64,000 nt of DNA from a virus. Under the pieces are notes generated by a model that saw only the letters and a list, made by a program, of their open reading frames with translations, searched no databases and was not told the origin of the DNA. Positions 31,805-64,000 of this stretch are shown here, one piece after another; within the stretch, counting starts at the first letter, position 1, and every line of letters starts with the position of its first letter. The position numbers and the translations under genes were made by a program. The stretch is from IMG/VR virus record IMGVR_UViG_3300010413_000013, positions 1 through 64,000 of that record; one strand, 5' to 3'.

Positions 31805-34435
31805 ATGGCAAAGGAAGGTTTTTATACAGAAGAGAAAATGGCAAAAAAGAAAAAACCTATTAAGAGATCAGTACTACTACCAAACGAAAAAGATGGTTGT
31901 GAAAAGTGTGGATTATACAAACAAACAATGTTGCATAATCCAAAATTAAAACCTTATGGTAGTTTCAGAAAAGAAGTACTTGTTATAGGAGAAGCAGTAA
32001 CAGCAAAAGATGATTATAATGGAAAACCTTTTAGTATTAAGGATGATGCATGGAAAGTATTACATAAAGCCTTTCAAAATTGTGGATGGAGTTTATATAG
32101 AGATTGTAAAATAGTAAATTGCATAGACTGTAGATCAGTAAAAATAGTAGGAGAAGGACATGATTCTTTCATTACTGATAAAACACCTACTAAAACAGAA
32201 ATACGATGTTGTTGGAATAGAAAGCTATCAGCTATTGAGAAGTATAAACCAAAAGCTGTTTTACTAGTAGGTGAAAAAGCTATATCTTCTTGGTATAGCT
32301 TTGATGAAGACAGAAACGCCTTTTCAGAAGTATCCTTGTCTAGTTGGAGAGGAAAAATAATAAAAGATAGAAAACTGAATATATGGGTAGGACATATATA
32401 CGATCCTTCATACATAATTAGAGGAAAGGATAAATATTTTAATATTTATTGCAAAGAACTTAGGAACTTTCTAAAGAAAGTAGATGAACCACTTGAATTA
32501 GAACCAATGCCCAAAATCCACAACTTGAAAAAATTTGAAGAAGTAAAGAAGTTATTAAGCAGGATACTAAGAGAGAAAGGAGAGATCTGCTTTGACTATG
32601 AAACCAGTTCTTTTAGATACTTTGAAAATCAGCATGAATTATATTTAGTATCCATATGCTATAAAGGGAAGACATTTGTTTTTCCCTACGACTTTCCACA
32701 TAAGTATAAGAATAATAGTAGAGTAGCATGGTGGAGTAGGTGGGAAAGAAGAGAAATAAAAAATCTACTAAAACGAATCCTTGAAGATCCTACAATTACT
32801 AAAGTAGCACAAAACATAAAGCATGAAATAATTGCTTCTGAATATTTGGTAGAAGATGCAAAAGTTAGAGGTGCAGCATTCGACACAATGATTGCACACC
32901 ACGTATTAGATGAAACTGCTAAGACTACAGGATTAAAATTTCAAACCTTCTACCATTTTGGAGTATATGATTATAGTAGAGAAATGAAAAGATATATGGT
33001 AGCTGAAAGAGGAGAGAAAAATAATTTTATACTTGCTCCTACTAAAGAAGCTTTTAATTATTGTGGTTATGATAGTGCATTTACTAATAGAATAAAAAAG
33101 ATCCAAAGGAGACAATTAAAAGAACAGAAACTAACCAAAGCATATGATTTATTGCATACAGGAGTAATAGCCTATGCCGACATAGAACAAAATGGAATTA
33201 AAATAGATGTAACATTAGCAAAGAAACTAAAGAACCAGTGGGATAATAGAATAGTAGAACTCAAAGACAGTATATTGAATAGTAAAGAAGCAAGGAGGTT
33301 TGAAAAGCTGAAGGGTAGACCTATGGCTTATAATAAAGAATTATCAGCAGCAGATTTGAGAGTACTACTATTTGATATACTGAAGATCAAACCAATAAAA
33401 CACACCAAAACAACTTGGTCTGTTGATAAAGAAGTATTAACTAAAATTGCTGCTAGGAATAAACTAGAGATACTAGACCACGAATTGGAAATAAGAATAC
33501 TACAAAAACTTTCTGGTACATACCTATCACAAATATTAGATAATGAAGTAAATGGGTTTATCTACCCAAATTTCAATCTACATATACCAGCAAGCTACAG
33601 ATCTAGTTCTAATGATCCTAATTTACAGAATCAACCAAAGAGATATGAAGCAGGGAAGGAGATAAGAAGACTTTTTACTACTAGGTTTGGGCAGTTCGGA
33701 CAGTTAGCAAATCCAGACTATAAAGCAATGGAAGTTAGAATTATAGCTTGTGTAACAAAAGATCCTGTACTAATAGACTTCATTGTTAGTGGTAACGATC
33801 CTCATGCCTATTGGTCAGAAAAGATATTTAGTAGAATCTTTAGTAGTAAAGAAAGAACAAAAGAATTAAGACAGGAAACAAAAAATAAACTTGTTTTTCC
33901 TTGCTTCTATGGATCTTTCTATAAGAAAACCGCACCCGATTTATGGGAAGTATTGACAGATGAAGAAAGAAGAGAATGGAAAAACTATAACAAATTCGAG
34001 CAACACATAGAAGATGTAGAAGACGACTTTTGGACTATGTTTAAAGTTACTAGAGAATGGCAGAATAATTATGTTAATAGTTATTATAAAAAAGGCTATA
34101 TAAGAGATTACGCTTGGGGATTTATTAGAAGAGGTTATTTAGATAGAACGAAAATATTTAACTTCCCAATTCAAGGACCAGCCTTTCATTGTTTACAATG
34201 GAGTATTAATGAGATCTGGAAACAAAACTTCTTTAACATGAAGAGTCTACTATGTGGAGAGATCCATGATGAACTTTTTTGGGATAACTGGAGAAGAGAA
34301 TTTCCAGTATTGAAAAAGAAAGTAGACTATATCATGACAGAAAAAATCAGAGAAGATAATCCTTGGATTATAGTACCACTAGAGACAGAATGGGAAATAG
34401 GTCCAAATTGGGCAGAGATGAAAGAAGTAAAATGA
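31805..34435 (+). CDS. UDG-domain/family A DNA polymerase fusion
   Basis: This encodes 876 residues, with GAGG 8 bases before the ATG. Residues about 25-235 match the uracil-DNA glycosylase superfamily of the Fe-S type: CEKCGLYKQ, VIGEAVTAKDDYNGKPF, VNCIDCRS, CCWNRKLSAIEKYKPKAVLL, with four cysteines placed as cluster ligands. From about 255 the 3'-5' exonuclease follows (EICFDYETSSF). The polymerase has motif A NPDYKAMEVR (about 636), motif B KLVFPCFYGSFYK (about 697) and motif C EIHDELFW (about 819). It is the replicative polymerase; the glycosylase part may check for uracil or be only structural. The 5'-3' exonuclease is a separate gene. Confidence 0.85.
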   Translation: MAKEGFYTEEKMAKKKKPIKRSVLLPNEKDGCEKCGLYKQTMLHNPKLKPYGSFRKEVLVIGEAVTAKDDYNGKPFSIKDDAWKVLHKAFQNCGWSLYRDCKIVNCIDCRSVKIVGEGHDSFITDKTPTKTEIRCCWNRKLSAIEKYKPKAVLLVGEKAISSWYSFDEDRNAFSEVSLSSWRGKIIKDRKLNIWVGHIYDPSYIIRGKDKYFNIYCKELRNFLKKVDEPLELEPMPKIHNLKKFEEVKKLLSRILREKGEICFDYETSSFRYFENQHELYLVSICYKGKTFVFPYDFPHKYKNNSRVAWWSRWERREIKNLLKRILEDPTITKVAQNIKHEIIASEYLVEDAKVRGAAFDTMIAHHVLDETAKTTGLKFQTFYHFGVYDYSREMKRYMVAERGEKNNFILAPTKEAFNYCGYDSAFTNRIKKIQRRQLKEQKLTKAYDLLHTGVIAYADIEQNGIKIDVTLAKKLKNQWDNRIVELKDSILNSKEARRFEKLKGRPMAYNKELSAADLRVLLFDILKIKPIKHTKTTWSVDKEVLTKIAARNKLEILDHELEIRILQKLSGTYLSQILDNEVNGFIYPNFNLHIPASYRSSSNDPNLQNQPKRYEAGKEIRRLFTTRFGQFGQLANPDYKAMEVRIIACVTKDPVLIDFIVSGNDPHAYWSEKIFSRIFSSKERTKELRQETKNKLVFPCFYGSFYKKTAPDLWEVLTDEERREWKNYNKFEQHIEDVEDDFWTMFKVTREWQNNYVNSYYKKGYIRDYAWGFIRRGYLDRTKIFNFPIQGPAFHCLQWSINEIWKQNFFNMKSLLCGEIHDELFWDNWRREFPVLKKKVDYIMTEKIREDNPWIIVPLETEWEIGPNWAEMKEVK

Positions 34436-34897: not shown

Positions 34898-35371
34898 ATG
34901 AAACGAAAAGAATTAGTAAGACTTAGTAGAAATAATCTAGACGATGCAGCAGAAGAACAAGCGGAAAGATATTTAGATGCAGCAGATACACAAGCTGAAG
35001 TAGGAAGAAGAAAAGAAAAATTAGAGAAAAGAATAAAAGATTTTGAAGCAGATCTAGCAGGGAAATACAGAAAACAACCTATGAAATATTTAGGTACTGA
35101 TAAGATAAGTGTACAAGATAAAGCAATACAAGAAAGAATTAGTAGACATAAAACTATTAGAAGACTTAGAGATGAGCTAATAGACATTCGACATGAATTT
35201 AATATGGCAGCTAATTTAGTAAATGCTTTAGACCAAAGAAGATCGGGTATAAAGTATTTACAAGAACTATGGAAAGGAGAATATTGGGGATTAGAACACA
35301 ATGCAGATCCATTAGAAGAAGCAGATTTACGACTTAGAAAACAAAAAAGGAGAAATAAAAACAATGAGTAA
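34898..35371 (+). CDS. Coiled-coil protein of unknown function
   Basis: This encodes 157 residues from ATG 34898 (GGATGAATAAA upstream); an ATG three codons earlier is possible. It is helical and charged throughout, with DAAEEQAERYLDAADTQAEV and RRKEKLEKRIKDFEADLAGK as likely coiled coils. It overlaps the SSB start by 8 bases. A recombination or SSB partner is suggested only by position. Confidence 0.6.
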   Translation: MKRKELVRLSRNNLDDAAEEQAERYLDAADTQAEVGRRKEKLEKRIKDFEADLAGKYRKQPMKYLGTDKISVQDKAIQERISRHKTIRRLRDELIDIRHEFNMAANLVNALDQRRSGIKYLQELWKGEYWGLEHNADPLEEADLRLRKQKRRNKNNE

Positions 35372-36512
35372 AAAGAAAAAAACTACTAAAAGAAGCACTC
35401 CCGATTACAGTGGTATGAGAGAAGATGTAGACCATGTTGTAAAAAACAGAGGTAATACAGGGAAGTTTGGTAATTATTTTGTTGGAGATGTAGAATTATG
35501 GAAAGTTTCAGAAGATGAACACGAAATTGCTATTATGCCTTCTAAAATAGAAGATCCAGAAAACAGTATTTTCAGAAGTAATAATGCTTTAAACAAACCA
35601 TTTAGAGAAGAAGACATTGAAAATGATAATTGTAGAATCTGGAGATTAACATTACTAATACATAGTAACGTCGGACCAAACCGTGATAGGATCGTTTGTC
35701 CGGGTACTGTTAAAAAACCATGTCCCATTTGTAATTTCATAGATACACTAGATCCAGAAGAAGATGAAAAACTTATTAATGATCTTAGAGCAACAAAGAA
35801 AGGGATTATGGCTATTTACTGTTTCGATTCAAAAAAGGATAGAAAAAAAGGTATCCAAATTTGGGAAGCACCACATAAAAAGATAATAGATGTTGTAGGT
35901 AGTATTGCTTCTAAAAATAAAAAGAAAGGTGGGTATAAAGATTTTTTTATTCCAGAAGAAAATTGGAATATCCTTTTTGAAAGAACCGGCAGCCGATTGA
36001 ATACGGATTATCTAGATGTGAGAATAGAAGAAAGAGATGAGGAAGACCGATTTTCACCAAAAGAACTTAAAAAACTTTTAGCACAAGTACCAGATCTGGA
36101 ACAAATAGTAGAAATTAAAAGTGAAGAAGAAATAGAAGAAATGTTTCCTATAGATGAACTAATGGAAAAACCAACAAAGAAAAACAAAAAGAAAAAACGA
36201 CAGCGTTTTGACGAAGATGAAGAAACCGAAACTGAAGACGAAGATGAAGACGAAGATGAAGAGGAAGACGAAGATGAAGAAGAAACCGAAACTGAAGACG
36301 AAGATGAAGACGAAGATGAAGAGGAAGACGAAGATGAAGAGGAAGACGAAGATGAAGACGAAGATGAAGATGAAGAAAAACCTGATTGCTTTGGTTTAAA
36401 ATGTAATAAGATAAGCAAATGTAAGAAGTGTGATGAAGATATTTGGGATGAGTGTTTTGAACTTACTGAAAAGAGGGATAGAAAGAAAAAAGGTAAGAAA
36501 GGCAAAAAATAA
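35364..36512 (+). CDS. gp32-like single-stranded DNA-binding protein
   Basis: This encodes 382 residues with AAAAGGAGAAATAAAAACA upstream. The core (residues about 30-245) has the gp32 plan, including the zinc-binding-like CPGTVKKPCPICNF and the later IWEAPHKKI and GYKDFFIP segments. Then come a lysine-rich linker, about 50 residues of Asp/Glu with ETETED units, and a cysteine-rich end (CFGLKCNKISKCKKCDEDIW) not usual in gp32. Acidic tails of SSBs recruit replication and repair partners. It overlaps the next gene by one base (TAATG). Confidence 0.78.
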   Translation: MSKKKKTTKRSTPDYSGMREDVDHVVKNRGNTGKFGNYFVGDVELWKVSEDEHEIAIMPSKIEDPENSIFRSNNALNKPFREEDIENDNCRIWRLTLLIHSNVGPNRDRIVCPGTVKKPCPICNFIDTLDPEEDEKLINDLRATKKGIMAIYCFDSKKDRKKGIQIWEAPHKKIIDVVGSIASKNKKKGGYKDFFIPEENWNILFERTGSRLNTDYLDVRIEERDEEDRFSPKELKKLLAQVPDLEQIVEIKSEEEIEEMFPIDELMEKPTKKNKKKKRQRFDEDEETETEDEDEDEDEEEDEDEEETETEDEDEDEDEEEDEDEEEDEDEDEDEDEEKPDCFGLKCNKISKCKKCDEDIWDECFELTEKRDRKKKGKKGKK

Positions 36513-37534
36513 TGAAGAAAAGAAAAAGAATAAAACTTGAAGATTCTCTTCCTAGAGTAGATCCAAGCATGTTTATTGGCAGTGGTTCTACTCTACACAA
36601 CCTAAGACTAACAGGACATCCCGATTGTGCATATAAAAAAGGAACCTTTGTAAATATAATAGGAGATTCTTTTGCAGGGAAAACAGTACTAGCATGGACA
36701 ATACTAGCACTTGCTTGTAGTGATAAGAGAGTAAAAGATTACGATAAATTTTATAATGAATCTGAAAACGGAGTAGGTTTTGATATAGAAGATCTATTTG
36801 GTAAAGTTGCAGCTAAGAAGGTTATAAGAGAAGTAGAAGGAGGTAGTTTTAAAAATTCTATTTATATAGAGAATTGGGCAAAAGACCTACCTAAGAGAAT
36901 GTCAAAAAGACCAATTATAGAAGTACAGGATAGCTTTGATAATTTAAAATGCAAAGAAGAAGAAAAAAAGAAGGTGGAAGATAGAAACTATCCATCAAAA
37001 CCAAGGATACTAACAGAAATCCTTAGAAGAAATGAAGGTACAGTAAAGAAAACAGGTAGTATTATTTTTATTGTTTCCCAAGTTAGGGATAATCTGGATG
37101 CTGTTATGTTTGGATCAAAAAAGCGTAGAACTGGTGGTAGAGCATTAAAGCATTACTGTGAAGTAGAAGAGTGGTTAGCAGCAGGAAAACCAATAACTAA
37201 AACATTTAGGGAAAGGAAAGAAGAAATAGGAAACTTTGTAGCTGTAAAGGTAACAAAGAATAGATCCACTGGTAGGAAAGGTAGAATAGAGTTTCCACTG
37301 ATAGTAGATTATGGGATTGATGATATTCTATCACAAATATTATTTCTAATACAATATAAAGAATGGAAGAAAACTGATAGTAAAATAAAATCTCCTTGGG
37401 GTAATTATACACAACAAGCATTAATAAAATTGATAGAAGATGAAGGACTAGAAGAAGAGCTAAAAGCAGAAACCACTAAACTTTGGAGTGAGATGCTTAA
37501 AGCTATCAAAGTAGAAAGGAAAAGGAAGTTTTAA
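36512..37534 (+). CDS. RecA/Sak4-like recombinase
   Basis: This encodes 340 residues. IIGDSFAGKTVLAWTILALA is the Walker A loop (about residues 50-60). IIFIVSQVRDNLDAV and GRALKHYCEVEEWL are RecA-core segments (loop L2 side and the following helix), as in UvsX/Sak4-like phage recombinases. It would form filaments on single-stranded DNA and promote strand exchange. The clear ADP-binding residues and its place between SSB and exonuclease support this. Start and stop overlap both neighbours (TAATG). Confidence 0.75.
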   Translation: MKKRKRIKLEDSLPRVDPSMFIGSGSTLHNLRLTGHPDCAYKKGTFVNIIGDSFAGKTVLAWTILALACSDKRVKDYDKFYNESENGVGFDIEDLFGKVAAKKVIREVEGGSFKNSIYIENWAKDLPKRMSKRPIIEVQDSFDNLKCKEEEKKKVEDRNYPSKPRILTEILRRNEGTVKKTGSIIFIVSQVRDNLDAVMFGSKKRRTGGRALKHYCEVEEWLAAGKPITKTFRERKEEIGNFVAVKVTKNRSTGRKGRIEFPLIVDYGIDDILSQILFLIQYKEWKKTDSKIKSPWGNYTQQALIKLIEDEGLEEELKAETTKLWSEMLKAIKVERKRKF

Positions 37535-38373
37535 TGATTATAGTAGACTGTAACTCATTATGTTACAAAGCTTTCTTCTCCTATGGTGCTCTAACTACTG
37601 CCGATGAAAAGACAGGAATTGTCTATGGATTTTTTAGAGATATTTATAATCTTAAAAAGAAGTATAATAATTTATCTCCATTTCTTTTTACTTGGGATAG
37701 CAAGGAAAGTAAGAGAAGAGAAATCTATCCTTTGTATAAAGCAAACAGGACCAAAACCAAGTCTATGCTTTCTGAAGAAGACTTTGCACAATTTGATTTA
37801 TTAAGAACACAAGTACTACAAGAACTTGGATTTACAAATATCTACTATAGAAATGGATATGAAGCAGACGATTTAATAGCTTTAATTTGTCATAAATTTA
37901 AAAACAGTAGAAAGGTAATAGTATCATCAGATCAGGATCTATATCAATTATTATCTTCTACTACTATGATGTACAAACCAAAGAAGGATCAGGAATATAC
38001 TCTAAAAGATTTTAAACGGCAGTATAAGATAACTCCTGTACAGTGGGCAGAAGTAAAAGCTATTGCTGGTTGTTCTACTGATAATGTAAAAGGAATTAGA
38101 GGAGTGGGAGAAGCTACTGCTATAAAGATTATCAAAGGTACACATAGCCAGAAAGGAATGGTGAAAATAAAACAACAACAAAGCATAATAGATAGAAATA
38201 GAGAATTAGTGAAACTCCCATTTGAAGATTTTCCTATTAGAATACCAATAGAAGATAGTTTCAATTGGAAAGCATTTAAAATTTACTGCTATAGATTTGG
38301 TTTTAATTCTATAATAACAGAACTACCAAAATGGAAACAATTATTTTTAGATGGTACTGTAGAGTACTTTTAA
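37534..38373 (+). CDS. 5'-3' exonuclease (FEN/PolA-N type)
   Basis: This encodes 279 residues. The acidic residues of the two-metal site are visible: MIIVDCNSLCYKAFF, FTWDSKESKRREIYPLYKANR, NGYEADDLIA, VSSDQDLYQLL and GCSTDNVKGIRGVGEATAIK (helix-hairpin-helix). It removes 5' flaps and RNA primers, the task that cellular PolA has as its N-terminal domain and that is missing from the polymerase here. It overlaps the recombinase gene by one base. Confidence 0.88.
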   Translation: MIIVDCNSLCYKAFFSYGALTTADEKTGIVYGFFRDIYNLKKKYNNLSPFLFTWDSKESKRREIYPLYKANRTKTKSMLSEEDFAQFDLLRTQVLQELGFTNIYYRNGYEADDLIALICHKFKNSRKVIVSSDQDLYQLLSSTTMMYKPKKDQEYTLKDFKRQYKITPVQWAEVKAIAGCSTDNVKGIRGVGEATAIKIIKGTHSQKGMVKIKQQQSIIDRNRELVKLPFEDFPIRIPIEDSFNWKAFKIYCYRFGFNSIITELPKWKQLFLDGTVEYF

Positions 38374-38758: not shown

Positions 38759-38959
38759 ATGTTTAATAAACTTGCTTTCTGTTTTTATGTTTTATTTGCA
38801 GCACCTCTTTCTGCTCTTATGTATTATTTAATAGGAGAGCATAAAGTATTTTCACTAGTGAAAGCAGATATAAAAGCAGGATGGGGGAGACTTAATGAAG
38901 AAGAGAAAAAAAATAAACGTAGAAAGGATAGTAGCAAACAAAAACAAAAGAAGAGGTAG
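38759..38959 (+). CDS. Small membrane protein
   Basis: This encodes 66 residues with AAGGAG 7 bases before the ATG. One hydrophobic helix spans residues 5-25 (LAFCFYVLFAAPLSALMYYL), and the C-terminus is very basic (KKNKRRKDSSKQKQKKR). It overlaps the nuclease gene by 65 bases. A membrane anchor for DNA-processing proteins is one possibility. Confidence 0.55.
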   Translation: MFNKLAFCFYVLFAAPLSALMYYLIGEHKVFSLVKADIKAGWGRLNEEEKKNKRRKDSSKQKQKKR

Positions 38960-39263
38960 AAGTGTAGAAAAGAGAGTAGCCGACTATCTAGGCTTTGATG
39001 CTAAAGGTTTGTATGGTGGAGAAGACGCAAAATTAGGAATTTTCAGTGCAGAAGTAAAAGACAGGAAGAAGTATGCAGGTGCTACTATGTTCAAACAAGC
39101 CGAAACAAATTGCAAAAAGGCGAAAAGGAAAATACCAATATTAGTAGTGCATACAACCAATGGTAGAATAGAAGATTCACTAGTACATATGAAAGCAAAG
39201 GATTGGATGGATCTATTTACCTTTGCTATGGAAAAGGGATATGTTAAAAAGAATAGAAGCTAA
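38895..39263 (+). CDS. PD-(D/E)XK nuclease, Holliday-junction-resolvase-like
   Basis: This encodes 122 residues. RRGRSVEKRVADYL supplies the first Glu, GGEDAKLGIFSAEVKDR the Asp and the E-x-K, and KQAETNCKKAKRKIPILVV the usual helix and strand after them. This order fits Hjc/VRR-type nucleases that cut branched DNA. It lies just before the Rad50/Mre11 genes and overlaps the first of them by 23 bases. The exact DNA substrate is inferred. Confidence 0.7.
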   Translation: MKKRKKINVERIVANKNKRRGRSVEKRVADYLGFDAKGLYGGEDAKLGIFSAEVKDRKKYAGATMFKQAETNCKKAKRKIPILVVHTTNGRIEDSLVHMKAKDWMDLFTFAMEKGYVKKNRS

Positions 39264-40158
39264 AAACTTTCAATGCCATAAATCTACTAATATTGAATTA
39301 GCTGAAGGAGTAAACTACATAATAGGAGACTCAGGAACCGGAAAGACTTCTATATTTCAACGTCTACCCAAGTGGTTGTTTTTTAATATTTCTCCTAAAA
39401 ATCTAATTAGACATGGACAGAAAGAAGTACAAGGAAAAGCTGTTTTCAGTAATGGAACTATAGTAGAGAAGACAAAAGGAACCAAAGGAATACAGATGAA
39501 GCTGAATGGTGAAAAGTTTGAAGCAGTGGGTAGATATGTTCCAGATGAAATAAAAGAAGTAATAAATCTAACAGAAAATAATTTTAATAATAATGGTAGA
39601 CTCCTATTGAATATTAGACCGGGAGATAGAGCAAAGTTTATTAACAAACTTATTAATTTAGAAATAATAGATAAAGCAAGCAAAGAAGCGAATAAAGATA
39701 TTATTAAAATCAAAACACGACTCAAACACAAAGAAGAAGAAATAAAGAAAACAAAAGAAGAATTAAAAAAAATAGCATGGATACATTATGCAGAAGGAAC
39801 TTTAGCTGTTCTGACAGAGATAGTGAATAAGACCAGAGAGGTAGACAGGAAGATAAGAAAAACAGAGGAGATCCTAAAAGAAAGAGAAGAAATACTATCT
39901 GATATTAGAACACTTGAAAAAAATTATCCACCTATAGAGCAGATAGAAAACATGGTTGGTTTGGCTGAAAAGATAGAAGATATAGAACAGGCTATAAATG
40001 CAATAGAAAATCTATTAGCTGAAGAAGTATCTATAACAGAAGAGATGAAAAATATTGAACGAATGTACAAAATGTATAAAAAGCAATTGATAGAAGAGTT
40101 TCCAGATATTTGTCCTTTATGTAATCAAGAAGTAAAGAATAAAAAAGGTGTACTATGA
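39241..40158 (+). CDS. Rad50/SbcC/gp46-like, N-terminal half
   Basis: This encodes 305 residues from ATG 39241 (AAGGG upstream). Residues 1-175 are the first ATPase lobe: MLKRIEAKNFQCHKSTNIEL, Walker A GDSGTGKT (29-36), LLLNIRPGDRAKFINKLINL. Residues 150-285 are a coiled coil. CPLC at 291-294 is the zinc-hook motif, and the protein stops 11 residues later. Signature and Walker B motifs are absent and occur in a separate protein at 41282-41917. The Mre11-like nuclease gene overlaps its end by 4 bases. So the protein is split at the hook and needs its partner for ATP hydrolysis. Confidence 0.82.
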   Translation: MLKRIEAKNFQCHKSTNIELAEGVNYIIGDSGTGKTSIFQRLPKWLFFNISPKNLIRHGQKEVQGKAVFSNGTIVEKTKGTKGIQMKLNGEKFEAVGRYVPDEIKEVINLTENNFNNNGRLLLNIRPGDRAKFINKLINLEIIDKASKEANKDIIKIKTRLKHKEEEIKKTKEELKKIAWIHYAEGTLAVLTEIVNKTREVDRKIRKTEEILKEREEILSDIRTLEKNYPPIEQIENMVGLAEKIEDIEQAINAIENLLAEEVSITEEMKNIERMYKMYKKQLIEEFPDICPLCNQEVKNKKGVL

Positions 40159-41069
40159 AACCCACTGCTTTGTTTTGTGCTGATTTACATATTAGACTAC
40201 TTGCTCCAAAATGTAGAGAACAAGAAGAATTTGAAGAATCTATGTTTTCTAAACTAGGCCAATTAAATATATGGCAACATAGGTATAAAGTTCCTTTGGT
40301 AGTAGTAGGAGATGTGGGGAATATTCCTGAGTGGCCTAATATTCTTCTTACCAAAATGCTTCCTTACTGGTATCAAAGTGGTTGTAGAAGAATAGTAATA
40401 CCGGGGCAGCATGATCTACCAGAACATAGATTAAATCAGTGGATGTTTGGAGCATTAGGATTATTACATGGAATAGGTGCTATAGAAGTAGTAATAGATA
40501 GAGAAGAGCATGTAGTAAAATGGGGAGGAATCACTTTAACTTTCTCTGCTTGTCCTTATGGGGAAGATCCATTACACATTATGAAAGAGGGAATGCCAAA
40601 TATTCTACTGATACACAAATTAATAATAGACGATCTGGAAGAGAAATATTTAGGTAGTACTACTACTACTGCTAGATCCATGCTAAATAAATTTACTGAA
40701 TATGATTTAATAGTATCTGGTGATAACCACAAACCTTTTGTAATGAAGAAGGGAAGAAGATTATTAGTAAATTGTGGTAGTATGATGCGAACTAGAATAG
40801 ATCAAGTAGATCACAAACCTAGAGCATACCTATGGTATGCAGAAACAAACACAATAGAGCCTCTATTCTTCAAAATAAAAAGAGATGTAATAAAAAAGGT
40901 ATCAATCAGTGGAGGTAATTCAAAAGAAAGGATGAATACCTATGTCAAATATTTATCAAAGAAAGTAGACCTAAGTCTATCATATGAACACAACTTAAAA
41001 CAAATACTACTAAAAAACAAAACAGACAGAAAAGTAGAAAAAAAGATTTGGAGGTATGTAAATGGATAG
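40155..41069 (+). CDS. Mre11/SbcD/gp47-like nuclease
   Basis: This encodes 304 residues. The phosphoesterase blocks are in order: FCADLHIR (7-14), VVVGDVGNIPEW (about 49-60), IPGQHDLPEH (about 83-92), ILLIHK and SGDNHKPF (about 195). GDNH replaces the more usual GHxH, keeping the last His. With Rad50-type proteins it processes DNA ends and supplies single-stranded DNA for recombination and recombination-primed replication. It lies between the two halves of the Rad50-like protein, with short overlaps on both sides. Confidence 0.82.
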   Translation: MKPTALFCADLHIRLLAPKCREQEEFEESMFSKLGQLNIWQHRYKVPLVVVGDVGNIPEWPNILLTKMLPYWYQSGCRRIVIPGQHDLPEHRLNQWMFGALGLLHGIGAIEVVIDREEHVVKWGGITLTFSACPYGEDPLHIMKEGMPNILLIHKLIIDDLEEKYLGSTTTTARSMLNKFTEYDLIVSGDNHKPFVMKKGRRLLVNCGSMMRTRIDQVDHKPRAYLWYAETNTIEPLFFKIKRDVIKKVSISGGNSKERMNTYVKYLSKKVDLSLSYEHNLKQILLKNKTDRKVEKKIWRYVNG

Positions 41070-41298
41070 GACTGAAAAGCTACTACATCTTAAAGAAAAA
41101 ATTACTTCTATTGAAAAAAGAAAAGATAGACTAAAAGGTAGACTAGATTCCAATAACAAAGAACTATCAAAGATAGGATATAGAAATAACAAACATGCTA
41201 GAAAAGAACTGAAGAAGCTAAAAGTATTGAGGGATGAATATATGAGGCTACTAAGAAAAGAAGAAGAAAAGATAGAAGAATATGACGATATCAATTGA
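41062..41298 (+). CDS. Short coiled-coil protein of the Rad50 locus
   Basis: This encodes 78 residues, nearly all charged helix with heptad character (KLLHLKEKITSIEKRKDRLK, then LRDEYMRLLRKEEEKIEEYD). It overlaps the nuclease gene by 8 bases and the next gene by 17. It may extend or bridge the coiled coil between the two Rad50 halves. That role is inferred from position and sequence type. Confidence 0.6.
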   Translation: MDRTEKLLHLKEKITSIEKRKDRLKGRLDSNNKELSKIGYRNNKHARKELKKLKVLRDEYMRLLRKEEEKIEEYDDIN

Positions 41299-41917
41299 AC
41301 ACTACAAAGAGAGAATACAATTTCTAAAAGGAAAAGCAGCACAACTGCAAGAAGATTTGTTTTTACAAAATATAGAAAAAAGAAAGCTGAAGAAAGAATT
41401 AGACACGGCAAAAAAAGCACAAGCTATTATACAATATGCAGCACAAGCTACTCAAAAGAAAATAGAATATTCTATTAGTGAAATTACTTCTCTTTCTCTT
41501 TCTGCTGTATTTGATAGACCATATAAATTCATCTGTAGGTTTAAAAAATTTGGAAGTAAAAGTACCCATTGTGATTTTCTATTTAGTGTAGATGGAGAAG
41601 AAATAGATCCTACATCTTCTGATTCTGGAGGTGCTTGCAACATTGCTGCTTTAGGTCTACTATGTACTATATACACTTTAACACAACCAAAGACTAGACC
41701 TATTTTATTTATAGAAGAACCATTCTTAGAATTAAAAGGAAGGAGGGCAAATATTAGAGGACTGAAATTGATAAACTTATTGAGTAGAAAACTCGGTATT
41801 CAATTCATTATTATCAGTGATGAAAGAGTAGATATAAAATATATAAAGAAGTATTCAGATAAAGTGTTTAAAGCAACAATGGAAAAAGGAATATCTATCA
41901 TAAAGGAAATAAAATGA
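41282..41917 (+). CDS. Rad50/SbcC/gp46-like, C-terminal half
   Basis: This encodes 211 residues. Residues 5-65 are a descending coiled coil. DPTSSDSGGACNIAALGL (109-126) is the ABC signature region and PILFIEEPF (140-148) the Walker B motif, followed by IQFIIISDERVD as the D-loop/H-loop region. No Walker A is present, so it complements the protein at 39241-40158. There is no frameshift-like sign between them: each has its own start and the nuclease gene is between. It overlaps the MaoC-like gene by ATGA. Confidence 0.8.
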   Translation: MTISIEHYKERIQFLKGKAAQLQEDLFLQNIEKRKLKKELDTAKKAQAIIQYAAQATQKKIEYSISEITSLSLSAVFDRPYKFICRFKKFGSKSTHCDFLFSVDGEEIDPTSSDSGGACNIAALGLLCTIYTLTQPKTRPILFIEEPFLELKGRRANIRGLKLINLLSRKLGIQFIIISDERVDIKYIKKYSDKVFKATMEKGISIIKEIK

Positions 41918-42378
41918 ACGATAAGTTTAAATATTCTGGATTTGTAGGAATGGAGTTTTCTACTATTAATAGAGTAGAAAAAGAACATTTGGAAAACTAC
42001 ATAAAAATGAGTACAGATAATAATCCAATACATTATAGTGATAGTGTAGCACAAAGAACAATCTTCAAAACGTGTATAGTACCGGGAGTAGTACTACTAG
42101 GATTTGTTGCTGGTTGTATCGAAAATAGTGCAAGATTGTTATTGAAAAACCACATTCCTATTATAAAAAACTTTGAAGCAAAGTTTATTAATCCTGCCCA
42201 TTTTGGAGATGTAATAAAAACAGATTTGCTTATTTCAAGCACAAAATATAATACGATAGGAGCATATATTTATTGTGGTTTATTAAAAACAAACAGGACA
42301 ATATTAACAGTAGAAACTAATTTTAAACTAATAGAAGTAAAGGAGGAAAAAACAGAATGCCAATGCCAGATTTTATAG
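41914..42378 (+). CDS. MaoC-like hotdog-fold hydratase
   Basis: This encodes 154 residues. DNNPIHYSD (about residues 35-43) contains the Asp-x4-His catalytic pair of (R)-specific enoyl-CoA hydratases, followed by FKTCIVPGVVLLGFVAGCIE, the conserved central helix with its PG. The C-terminus gives the hotdog strands (NFEAKFINPAHFGDVIKTDL). Family members hydrate enoyl-CoA or enoyl-ACP. Such an enzyme is uncommon in phages, and its coupling (ATGA) to a recombination gene is unexpected. The substrate is unknown. Confidence 0.75.
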   Translation: MNDKFKYSGFVGMEFSTINRVEKEHLENYIKMSTDNNPIHYSDSVAQRTIFKTCIVPGVVLLGFVAGCIENSARLLLKNHIPIIKNFEAKFINPAHFGDVIKTDLLISSTKYNTIGAYIYCGLLKTNRTILTVETNFKLIEVKEEKTECQCQIL

Positions 42379-42836
42379 AATGTTCTTGTGCAGTATGTGC
42401 TAAACAATGTAATTTTAGACCGGGATATTTTAAACCAGAAGAGATAGATAAGGTAGCAAAATATCTTAACATGGATGTAGAAACGGTTTTCTACTCCTTC
42501 CTTGCTGTAGATTGGGATGACAGAGAGGAACACAATGGAGAAGTAATATTTATTATTGCTCCAGCATTAAAAGATTCTCATACTGGAGTAGAGTATCCAG
42601 AGTATCCTTCTGGTGAATGTTCCTTCTATATGAATAAGACATGCACCATTTATCCTGTTAGACCTTTTGAATGTAGACTTTTCGATCACAGACTTTCACA
42701 AGATTACTATAGAGAGAAGAGATTGGAAGTAGTTCAAAGCTGGAAGGGTAAAACAGAGATGATAGAAAAACTTCTTGGTAGACCTCCACAAGCAAAGACA
42801 TTACATCTCCAAGATATAGTTAATCACTGGTGGTAG
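42357..42836 (+). CDS. YkgJ-type cysteine-cluster protein
   Basis: This encodes 159 residues with AAAGGAGGAAAAAACAGA as the ribosome site inside the preceding gene. CSCAVCAKQC at the N-terminus, SGECSFY and NKTCTIYPVRPFECRLFDHR match the YkgJ/UPF0153 family with its CxxxC...C...YPxRPxxCR pattern, which binds zinc or iron. The role of the family is uncertain. It is the last gene of the rightward unit. Confidence 0.8.
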   Translation: MPMPDFIECSCAVCAKQCNFRPGYFKPEEIDKVAKYLNMDVETVFYSFLAVDWDDREEHNGEVIFIIAPALKDSHTGVEYPEYPSGECSFYMNKTCTIYPVRPFECRLFDHRLSQDYYREKRLEVVQSWKGKTEMIEKLLGRPPQAKTLHLQDIVNHWW

Positions 42837-62644: not shown

Positions 62645-64000
62645 TTACATCCCCTTCCAAAATAAGTCATTTATAGGTACTTGTTTATTTCCACCTAATA
62701 CTATAAACTCTCTTTCAGACATAAACTTATTCTTCCACCAAAGCTCATGTGGTAGTACTACATCTTTGGTACTCATTTCTATCCTAGCTGTAACCCCACC
62801 AGCGTTTTTTCCAAACCCATCTGCTATTGACACTTCATCTGTATATCCAGACAAAGCATTTTCTCTAATTGGAACCAAACCATAGCCTTCTTTTTGTGCT
62901 TCTAAACACCTTGCTTTAAAGGCTGGTCCTGTTTTACTTCCGTCAGTTCCACGATATAGAGTAATTTTCTTTTGTCCTACTGCTCTATAATATTCTTGGG
63001 TAGCTGCTCTCACTCTTATATACTCGTCTATTACTCTGTCTTCCATACCACTTGCCAAATATTTCTTTACTTCTTTCTCTATAGACTCACTGGATACAAA
63101 AGCTTTTATTTCTCTGTTCTCTACTTTTGCTGCTACAAACTTTAAAGAAGCAGGATACGAACCTTGTGTAGACCCTTGCCAAATAGAAAGGAGGTTCATC
63201 ACATTGGGGCATTCTTCGCTTATCTTCTTTCTGATAACACTCTGCATTGATCCTTCTGTCTTATCTTCTAATCCTTCAATAAACTTTCTGTACTCCTTCC
63301 TGTAAAGCTTGTATACATTCTCGTATTCCCCTCTCAGTGTTCCTACTTCTTCCGCTTCATACTTTTTACCTATCGGATACCTTTTAATCTTTACTGGTTC
63401 TTTCTTCTTTTTAGCATAGTCTAATTTTGCTTTAGCTTTTTCTATAGCCTTTTTCTTTATAGCTATCTGCTTCTCCAGTGCTGCTAATGCTTGTTGTTTA
63501 GCAAGCAGTTCTTGTTTAACCTTTACTGCTTTTATGGCTTTTACTCCTAATGCTTTTTCCCTCTTAGCAGCAGCTTTAGTATTGCTGCCATGAATACTTT
63601 TCATATAAGGTAGTAAAGCACATCTGCAATTTGGTTCACCTATTAACTCTTCTGCTTCTTGCCTAGTATATATTCTACCATGCCTTTCTATATGTGTATC
63701 TCTAACCCTTTCATCTAGTGCTGTCCACCACTGTACTAATATTTCTTCATTTACTATAGGTTCAAAATTCTCGTATTCGGTTAATGCTCCTAAATTATGT
63801 GTTCTTACTATTTCAGTTCGAGTAATCAATCTTGCTCTATTGATTGCTCTCATATTCTTTCCACCTACTGTTACCATACCAGTTTTATCTTTGTCAATAG
63901 TATCCAACATATTCCTAGCAATTTGATATGGTCCCTTACCTTCTGCTAGTCCTAATGATAGTACTCTACTTATCTGCCGATCCATTACTTCTGTAATGCC
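62645..64000 (-). CDS. MuF-like head protein fused to an ADP-ribosyltransferase-like domain, N-terminus beyond window
   Basis: The frame is open to base 64000; 451 codons are visible, with an internal Met at 63985. The MuF part shows GLAEGKGPYQIARNMLDTI, INRARLITRTEIVRTHN, and WWTALDERVRDTHIERHGR with a later PNCRCALLPY. A long lysine/alanine coiled coil links to the C-terminal 110 residues, where KITLYRGTDG, ENALSGYTDEVSIADGFGKN and a final SEREFIVLGG fit the R-S-ExE pattern of arginine-type ADP-ribosyltransferases. MuF proteins sit inside the head, so the domain could enter the host with the DNA. Confidence 0.8.
   Translation of the reverse strand, partial: GITEVMDRQISRVLSLGLAEGKGPYQIARNMLDTIDKDKTGMVTVGGKNMRAINRARLITRTEIVRTHNLGALTEYENFEPIVNEEILVQWWTALDERVRDTHIERHGRIYTRQEAEELIGEPNCRCALLPYMKSIHGSNTKAAAKREKALGVKAIKAVKVKQELLAKQQALAALEKQIAIKKKAIEKAKAKLDYAKKKKEPVKIKRYPIGKKYEAEEVGTLRGEYENVYKLYRKEYRKFIEGLEDKTEGSMQSVIRKKISEECPNVMNLLSIWQGSTQGSYPASLKFVAAKVENREIKAFVSSESIEKEVKKYLASGMEDRVIDEYIRVRAATQEYYRAVGQKKITLYRGTDGSKTGPAFKARCLEAQKEGYGLVPIRENALSGYTDEVSIADGFGKNAGGVTARIEMSTKDVVLPHELWWKNKFMSEREFIVLGGNKQVPINDLFWKGM

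Follow-up and report, generated by a model that had tools for sequence, protein, structure and literature searches.

A Phage Rad50 Encoded in Three Genes, Cut at the Zinc Hook and Accompanied by Mre11

Organization of the Module

The stretch of DNA analyzed here (the window) comprises positions 1 to 64,000 of the virus record IMGVR_UViG_3300010413_000013 in IMG/VR. It carries four overlapping genes, which encode the N-terminal half of a Rad50 protein (N-half), an Mre11/SbcD-like subunit, a small protein termed mid and the C-terminal half of Rad50 (C-half) (Table 1). Mre11-Rad50 is close to universal, and every other natural Rad50 known to us is a single uninterrupted chain. In the window no single polypeptide constitutes Rad50 and three genes take its place, cut at the hook and encoded with Mre11, and this organization is the norm throughout a large family of phages. 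Because Rad50 is split over three genes and fused forms are absent from the 187 complete loci of the family, the protein is a variant rather than an ordinary member of the Rad50/SbcC group.

The successive overlaps within the module are 4 (ATGA), 8 and 17 nucleotides. The start of the N-half is itself overlapped for 23 nucleotides by an upstream resolvase-like gene, and the 3' end of the C-half for 4 nucleotides by a MaoC-like gene. The sequence GGAGGT lies at 41050–41055, ahead of the start of the mid gene. The initial annotation of this DNA had proposed a Rad50 split at the zinc hook, with four overlapping genes and with an Mre11-like gene and a 78-residue gene between the halves; the layout is as it described, and the split is upheld by sequence, predicted fold and synteny.

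The Two Halves of Rad50

The N-half has a Walker A motif of GDSGTGKT, a rising arm and a hook motif of C291-P-L-C294, and its stop codon comes 11 residues further, as had been noted before. The protein (P0001) aligns to residues 3–297 of the NCBIfam Rad50 model PRK03918 and matches AAA_15 (6e-10) and AAA_23 (1e-6) in Pfam, as well as phrog_16465, annotated as 'exonuclease' (5e-22), and the SbcC family phrog_77 (7e-15) in PHROG. The closest solved structure in a PDB search is M. jannaschii Rad50 (5e-10). The predicted model, with a predicted local distance difference test score (pLDDT) of 79, has helices at residues 141–228 and 234–286, and a fold search with it returned Rad50 3av0_B and the N-terminal chains 1f2u_C/A. 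By motif, AAA_23, AAA_15, NCBIfam Rad50 and fold, the N-half is a Rad50/SbcC N-lobe with a Walker A motif.

The C-halves of the family carry SGGG, LDEP and TH motifs, align to residues 809–892 of 895 and 661–868 of 872 in archaeal Rad50 models, and are Rad50/SbcC C-lobes. The window copy matches phrog_15167 ('ATPase') over its full length (1e-9); no match was found in a Pfam search. Its AlphaFold2 model (pLDDT 92) has a helix from residue 5 to 76 followed by a beta/alpha lobe, and the best folds in the PDB are the C-terminal chains of P. furiosus Rad50, 1f2t_B and 1f2u_D (E ~3e-8). The falling helix, the SGG signature and the Walker B motif without a Walker A were correctly recognized in the initial annotation; the Walker B, however, is LFIEEP with IEEP in place of DE, and the canonical H-loop His is not present, the sequence there being ISDE with D at the His position. 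The possibility that the C-half is an unrelated ATP-binding cassette (ABC) protein with a Walker A partner elsewhere does not hold, as its best folds are Rad50 C-lobes and no AAA_23-type N-lobe besides the N-half was found in the 76-kb record, which may itself be a fragment.

Distribution and Conservation of the Split

Many uncultivated phages carry the same split, and scans that started from C-halves alone recovered the module in hundreds of viral contigs. Among viral contigs, 187 loci carry all four genes and represent 130 clusters at 80% identity. The gene order is almost always N-half, Mre11, mid and C-half on one strand, although in some loci the pieces are up to 2–3 kb apart with other genes between them. 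A fused form of the N-half, mid or C-half occurs in none of the 187 complete loci. The hook lies within 30 aa of the N-half C-terminus in 129 of the 130 clusters, which places a CxxC motif of the Rad50 hook type, with a predicted role in zinc binding, at the split point.

The first scan was seeded with N-halves and used the CxxC pattern, and for that reason it was repeated from C-halves alone. The N-half scan gave 58 viral loci, and by profile search every locus with enough flanking sequence had all four genes; it contained 38 split clusters, whose N-halves extend 2–17 aa beyond the CxxC, along with two single-chain relatives. The scan from C-halves gave 437 pattern matches, 365 of which encode relatives. 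Among the best 80, an N-half was in range in 73, and its CxxC was 2–30 aa from the end in 72. With another C-half as seed, 72 loci were newly retrieved, and 65 of 66 N-halves had a terminal CxxC, the lone exception being a truncated 142-aa frame; the contigs of this second scan had partly been matched by earlier scans, and the overlap was removed by clustering. A terminal CxxC is found in 88 of 89 family N-halves, compared with 32 of 402 control open reading frames of at least 200 aa from the same loci (8%) and with 0 of 89 in each of Mre11, mid and the C-half, a difference that chance does not explain.

The module occurs in isolated phages as well. A probe based on a C-lobe motif, which served as a lead only, led to Bacillus phage vB_BboS-125, and a search with the C-half of this phage then found Microcystis phage Mvi-JY20 and Achromobacter phage JWF, the latter with an SbcC-type pair. 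Mvi-JY20 has the exact order of the window with overlapping genes, all annotated as 'hypothetical protein'. In vB_BboS-125 a 471-aa N-half, which stops 9 residues after its CPLC, is followed by an AP2 gene and then by mid (78 aa) and the C-half (211 aa); Mre11 is encoded as well. In both phages the pieces are annotated as unrelated. The intact Mre11-like gene of vB_BboS-125 (NC_048735, L007:5629-6609) is unannotated in the public record. In LR745208 (L011/L019) and Microbacterium phage Magritte (L018/L008) the module is dispersed, and mid or the C-half adjoins sliding-clamp-like and PD-(D/E)XK-like genes; Magritte gp247, annotated as 'ASCE ATPase', appears clamp-like by eye. ABC transporters and SMC proteins among the probe matches (L010, L012, L013, L015) were discarded as ordinary, and L014 was left aside. 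When the window proteins were compared with 50,697 phage records by tblastn, no useful match emerged, and the weak Enterococcus Saphexavirus matches were judged to be due to chance. A scan of a species-genome collection gave nine contigs of metagenome-assembled genomes, six of them with the four-gene module and possibly mis-binned phage.

These data bear on two alternative explanations. The window comes from a metagenome assembly, and the sole near-identical second contig in IMG/VR, identical over 12.9 kb, is probably the same virus and gives weak support by itself, which would leave room for a sequencing error or a decayed gene. Such an error is extremely improbable, however, as had been asserted in the initial annotation, since the same split is repeated in 130 diverged clusters, isolated phages included, and the overlapping frames are intact. 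Alternatively, the pieces might be joined after transcription or translation, by an intron, a trans-splicing intein or a frameshift, into an ordinary Rad50 chain. Interruption is frequent in phage genes, and the AP2-domain gene in vB_BboS-125 lies between the N-half and mid. However, in most loci the halves are separated by a complete Mre11 gene read in other frames, each of the pieces is an overlapping frame with a start and stop of its own, and tails of 2–30 aa after the CxxC leave no intein-sized extension. Joining by intein, intron or frameshift is rejected on this gene layout, and joining of any kind seems very improbable.

Comparison with Single-Chain and Other Rearranged Systems

The archaeal and eukaryotic Rad50-Mre11 and bacterial SbcCD systems share with the module the ABC lobes, a CxxC hook between arm segments and an adjacent Mre11 phosphoesterase. 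They differ in that their Rad50 is one chain, while here there are three genes, a C-terminal hook and an additional conserved subunit of 75–100 aa. T4 gp46/gp47 and phage SbcC (phrog_77), for example gp43/gp44 of phage JWF, are likewise phage end-processing pairs beside recombination genes, but gp46-type proteins and the two single-chain relatives (670 and 729 aa) are unsplit, with no adjacent mid gene (four single-chain loci checked). When the N-half profile is aligned with one single-chain relative (L077), its entire length covers residues 2–385, up to the internal hook GVCPEC, and 344 residues remain, which identifies the hook as the split point.

Separate N- and C-lobes also make up the ABC head in PDB 1F2T and 1F2U, the two-chain Rad50 catalytic domain. 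These crystals, built from two separately encoded lobes, indicate that an unlinked Rad50 head can form. They represent an engineered protein that lacks the arm, the hook and mid, whereas the module of the window is natural and full length. Other phage enzymes are known to reassemble from pieces, such as Aeh1 NrdA, phage 25 gp43A/gp43B and T4 topoisomerase (PMC2988022), but these splits are sporadic and linked to homing endonucleases, while that of Rad50 is fixed across a large diverged family and has an added subunit. The Mre11/Rad50 fusions of Mimivirus R555 (PMC3175470) are also a rearranged architecture, in the opposite direction, as two proteins have been fused. A survey of jumbo phages treats SbcC as one ABC ATPase (PMC7824862). 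No split Rad50/SbcC, and no earlier description of a three-gene Rad50, was found in the open-access literature, subscription journals and preprints being outside this scope.

The Mre11 Subunit

The Mre11 of the window has the motifs DLH, GD, GQHD, H154 and GDNH. In the alignment of 89 family clusters the ligands D10, D53, H86, H154 and H192 never vary and H12 is conserved in 88, so that the metal-ligand motifs of Mre11/SbcD are found throughout the family. Because these core positions are conserved, the nuclease is probably active, with the His-to-Asp and Asn-to-Gln substitutions providing non-canonical ligands. The two substituted positions, 85 and 190, are coupled: Gln/Asp is found in 49 clusters, Asn/Asp in 17, Asn/His in 23 and Gln/His in none. 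The GNHD to GQHD change is thus seen solely together with GHxH to GDxH, a pattern which suggests that His-to-Asp preceded Asn-to-Gln.

The Mid Subunit

The gene that the initial annotation had described as a 78-residue coiled-coil gene is present, and it is a conserved third piece rather than filler. A family hidden Markov model finds mid as a protein of 75–100 aa preceding the C-half in essentially every locus, with a consensus of LxxLKxxIxxAK...LxGxxxxLxxQLxxxFGxxSxxEA...LxxLexxI and a predicted helix-turn-helix. The shared mid gene is the only feature that suggests a single origin of the split.

Mid would most simply be a dedicated arm subunit forming the hook-proximal part of the falling arm. 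It has a weak match (E 0.007) to residues 547–617 of an 878-residue Rad50, collinear between the hook and the C-half, and among the loci examined it occurs only beside split halves. The window belongs to the class with short arms, in which the rising arm has ~150 residues and the falling helix plus mid ~154, as would be expected if mid were the distal falling arm. The other possibility is that mid is a separate regulator or chaperone with an Nbs1-like role, outside the falling arm. The helix-turn-helix pattern would suit such a role, the mid profile has no significant alignment to single-chain arms, and mid length is independent of arm length (rho -0.02). In view of the collinear match, the agreement in length and the restriction of mid to split loci, we regard a regulator as a serious possibility and the less probable of the two.

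Proposed Molecular Architecture

It seems likely that the four genes encode a complex of the Mre11-Rad50 (SbcCD, gp47/gp46) type in which Rad50 consists of three polypeptides made from a single operon of overlapping genes. The Walker A lobe would come from the N-half, together with the rising arm and, through the C-terminal CxxC, half of a zinc hook, while the C-half would add the falling helix and the lobe with the signature and Walker B. One ABC head would be formed from the two lobes, with ATP sandwiched by two heads as in ordinary Rad50. Mre11 would dock on the heads, and zinc at the tip would be shared by two N-halves; we infer this assembly, the zinc bridge and the position and stoichiometry of mid. 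The halves had been expected to meet through the coiled coil. The arm need not act alone, as contact between them could equally be made at the ATPase head, as it is in the two-chain crystal structure. The split may offer a new way of controlling the complex, as the initial annotation had proposed.

Several observations weigh against this picture. The predicted template modelling score of the N-half model is 0.39. Most N-half arms have 197 residues, others 244, 289–301 or 346–347, and the class of the window ~150. Autocorrelation reveals a 47-residue sequence repeat in these arms, whose lengths step by 47 residues, and the extra units have no counterpart in mid (78) or the falling helix (75), which are nearly constant. 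The rising arm is at least 197 residues in most of the family compared with ~155 for mid plus the C-half helix (150 and 154 in the window class), and with longer N-half arms and a constant mid and C-half, an antiparallel full-length arm fits the shortest class only. The mid profile has no significant match to single-chain Rad50 arms, and homology to that segment is not claimed. In the window copy, the Q-loop Gln is replaced, the Walker B Asp-to-Glu change occurs in 1 of 88 clusters and the H-loop Asp is common to 14 of 88. As a result of the Walker B Glu, the lost Q-loop Gln and the H-loop Asp, ATP hydrolysis by this copy may be weak and is uncertain even if the family is active. The window copy sits on a long branch in the C-half tree, in which single-chain relatives could not be placed.

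The mismatched arms, the partly degenerate ATPase motifs of the window and the separation of the pieces in some loci would also suit halves that act apart, the N-half as a zinc-dimerised DNA tether and the C-half together with mid either as partners of another ATPase or as regulators of Mre11. This appears improbable, as the halves complete each other's motifs at one ABC site, correspond to opposite ends of Rad50 and co-occur in essentially every complete locus, and the record yielded no further Walker A protein of the AAA_23 type. Within the three-polypeptide complex, a more speculative extension is that Rad50 is openable. Since the hook occupies a free C-terminus and two non-covalent pieces would make up the falling arm, the arm could disassemble and reassemble, serving as a DNA gate or an assembly checkpoint with no single-chain equivalent. 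Overlong N-half arms would associate with one another close to the hook. We consider this rather unlikely on present evidence.

Genomic Context

Table 1. Genes of the Rad50-Mre11 module and of its recombination neighborhood in the window.
Feature	Coordinates	Strand	Properties
Rad50 N-half	39241..40158	+	305 aa; Walker A residues 29-36, rising helical arm 141-286, CPLC 291-294
Mre11/SbcD-like metallophosphoesterase subunit	40155..41069	+	304 aa; metal-site variant GQHD, GDNH; family alignment
Mid subunit	41062..41298	+	78 aa; predicted helix-turn-helix; third conserved piece of split Rad50
Rad50 C-half	41282..41917	+	211 aa; falling helix residues 5-76, SGG signature, Walker B IEEP
gp32-like single-stranded DNA-binding protein, acidic tail	35364..36512	+	phrog_1192 2e-14
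RecA/UvsX-like recombinase	36512..37534	+	Pfam RecA 2e-14; phrog_97 8e-25
5'-3' exonuclease	37534..38373	+	Pfam 5_3_exonuc_N 5e-31
RusA/Holliday-junction-resolvase-like gene	38895..39263	+	phrog_244 9e-10

The neighbors of the module are gp32-like, UvsX-like, 5'-3' exonuclease and resolvase genes together with a family A DNA polymerase, and for this reason, by analogy with T4 gp46/47, it likely takes part in recombination-dependent replication and end resection. The complex would resect DNA ends for UvsX-dependent phage recombination and replication. The polymerase (31805-34435) begins with a uracil-DNA-glycosylase-like domain at its N-terminus and also contains a 3'-5' exonuclease. A MaoC-like dehydratase (41914-42378) and a putative CxxCxxCC metal-binding protein (42357-42836) directly follow the module and are unusual phage cargo. 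Further away, on the minus strand (62645-63985), a Mu F-like head morphogenesis protein has a C-terminal match (3e-6) to DRAT (dinitrogenase reductase ADP-ribosyltransferase).

Significance

A Rad50 in three pieces, kept across a diverged family, implies that covalent continuity of the hook and the arm is dispensable. Phage genes annotated as 'exonuclease', 'ATPase' and 'hypothetical protein' as if unrelated are now explained, and a small, unnamed conserved subunit is revealed. Since the Rad50 pieces can be mixed, shortened and titrated independently, the module offers a genetic handle on the function of the Rad50 arm and hook, and on how opening of the head reaches the tip.
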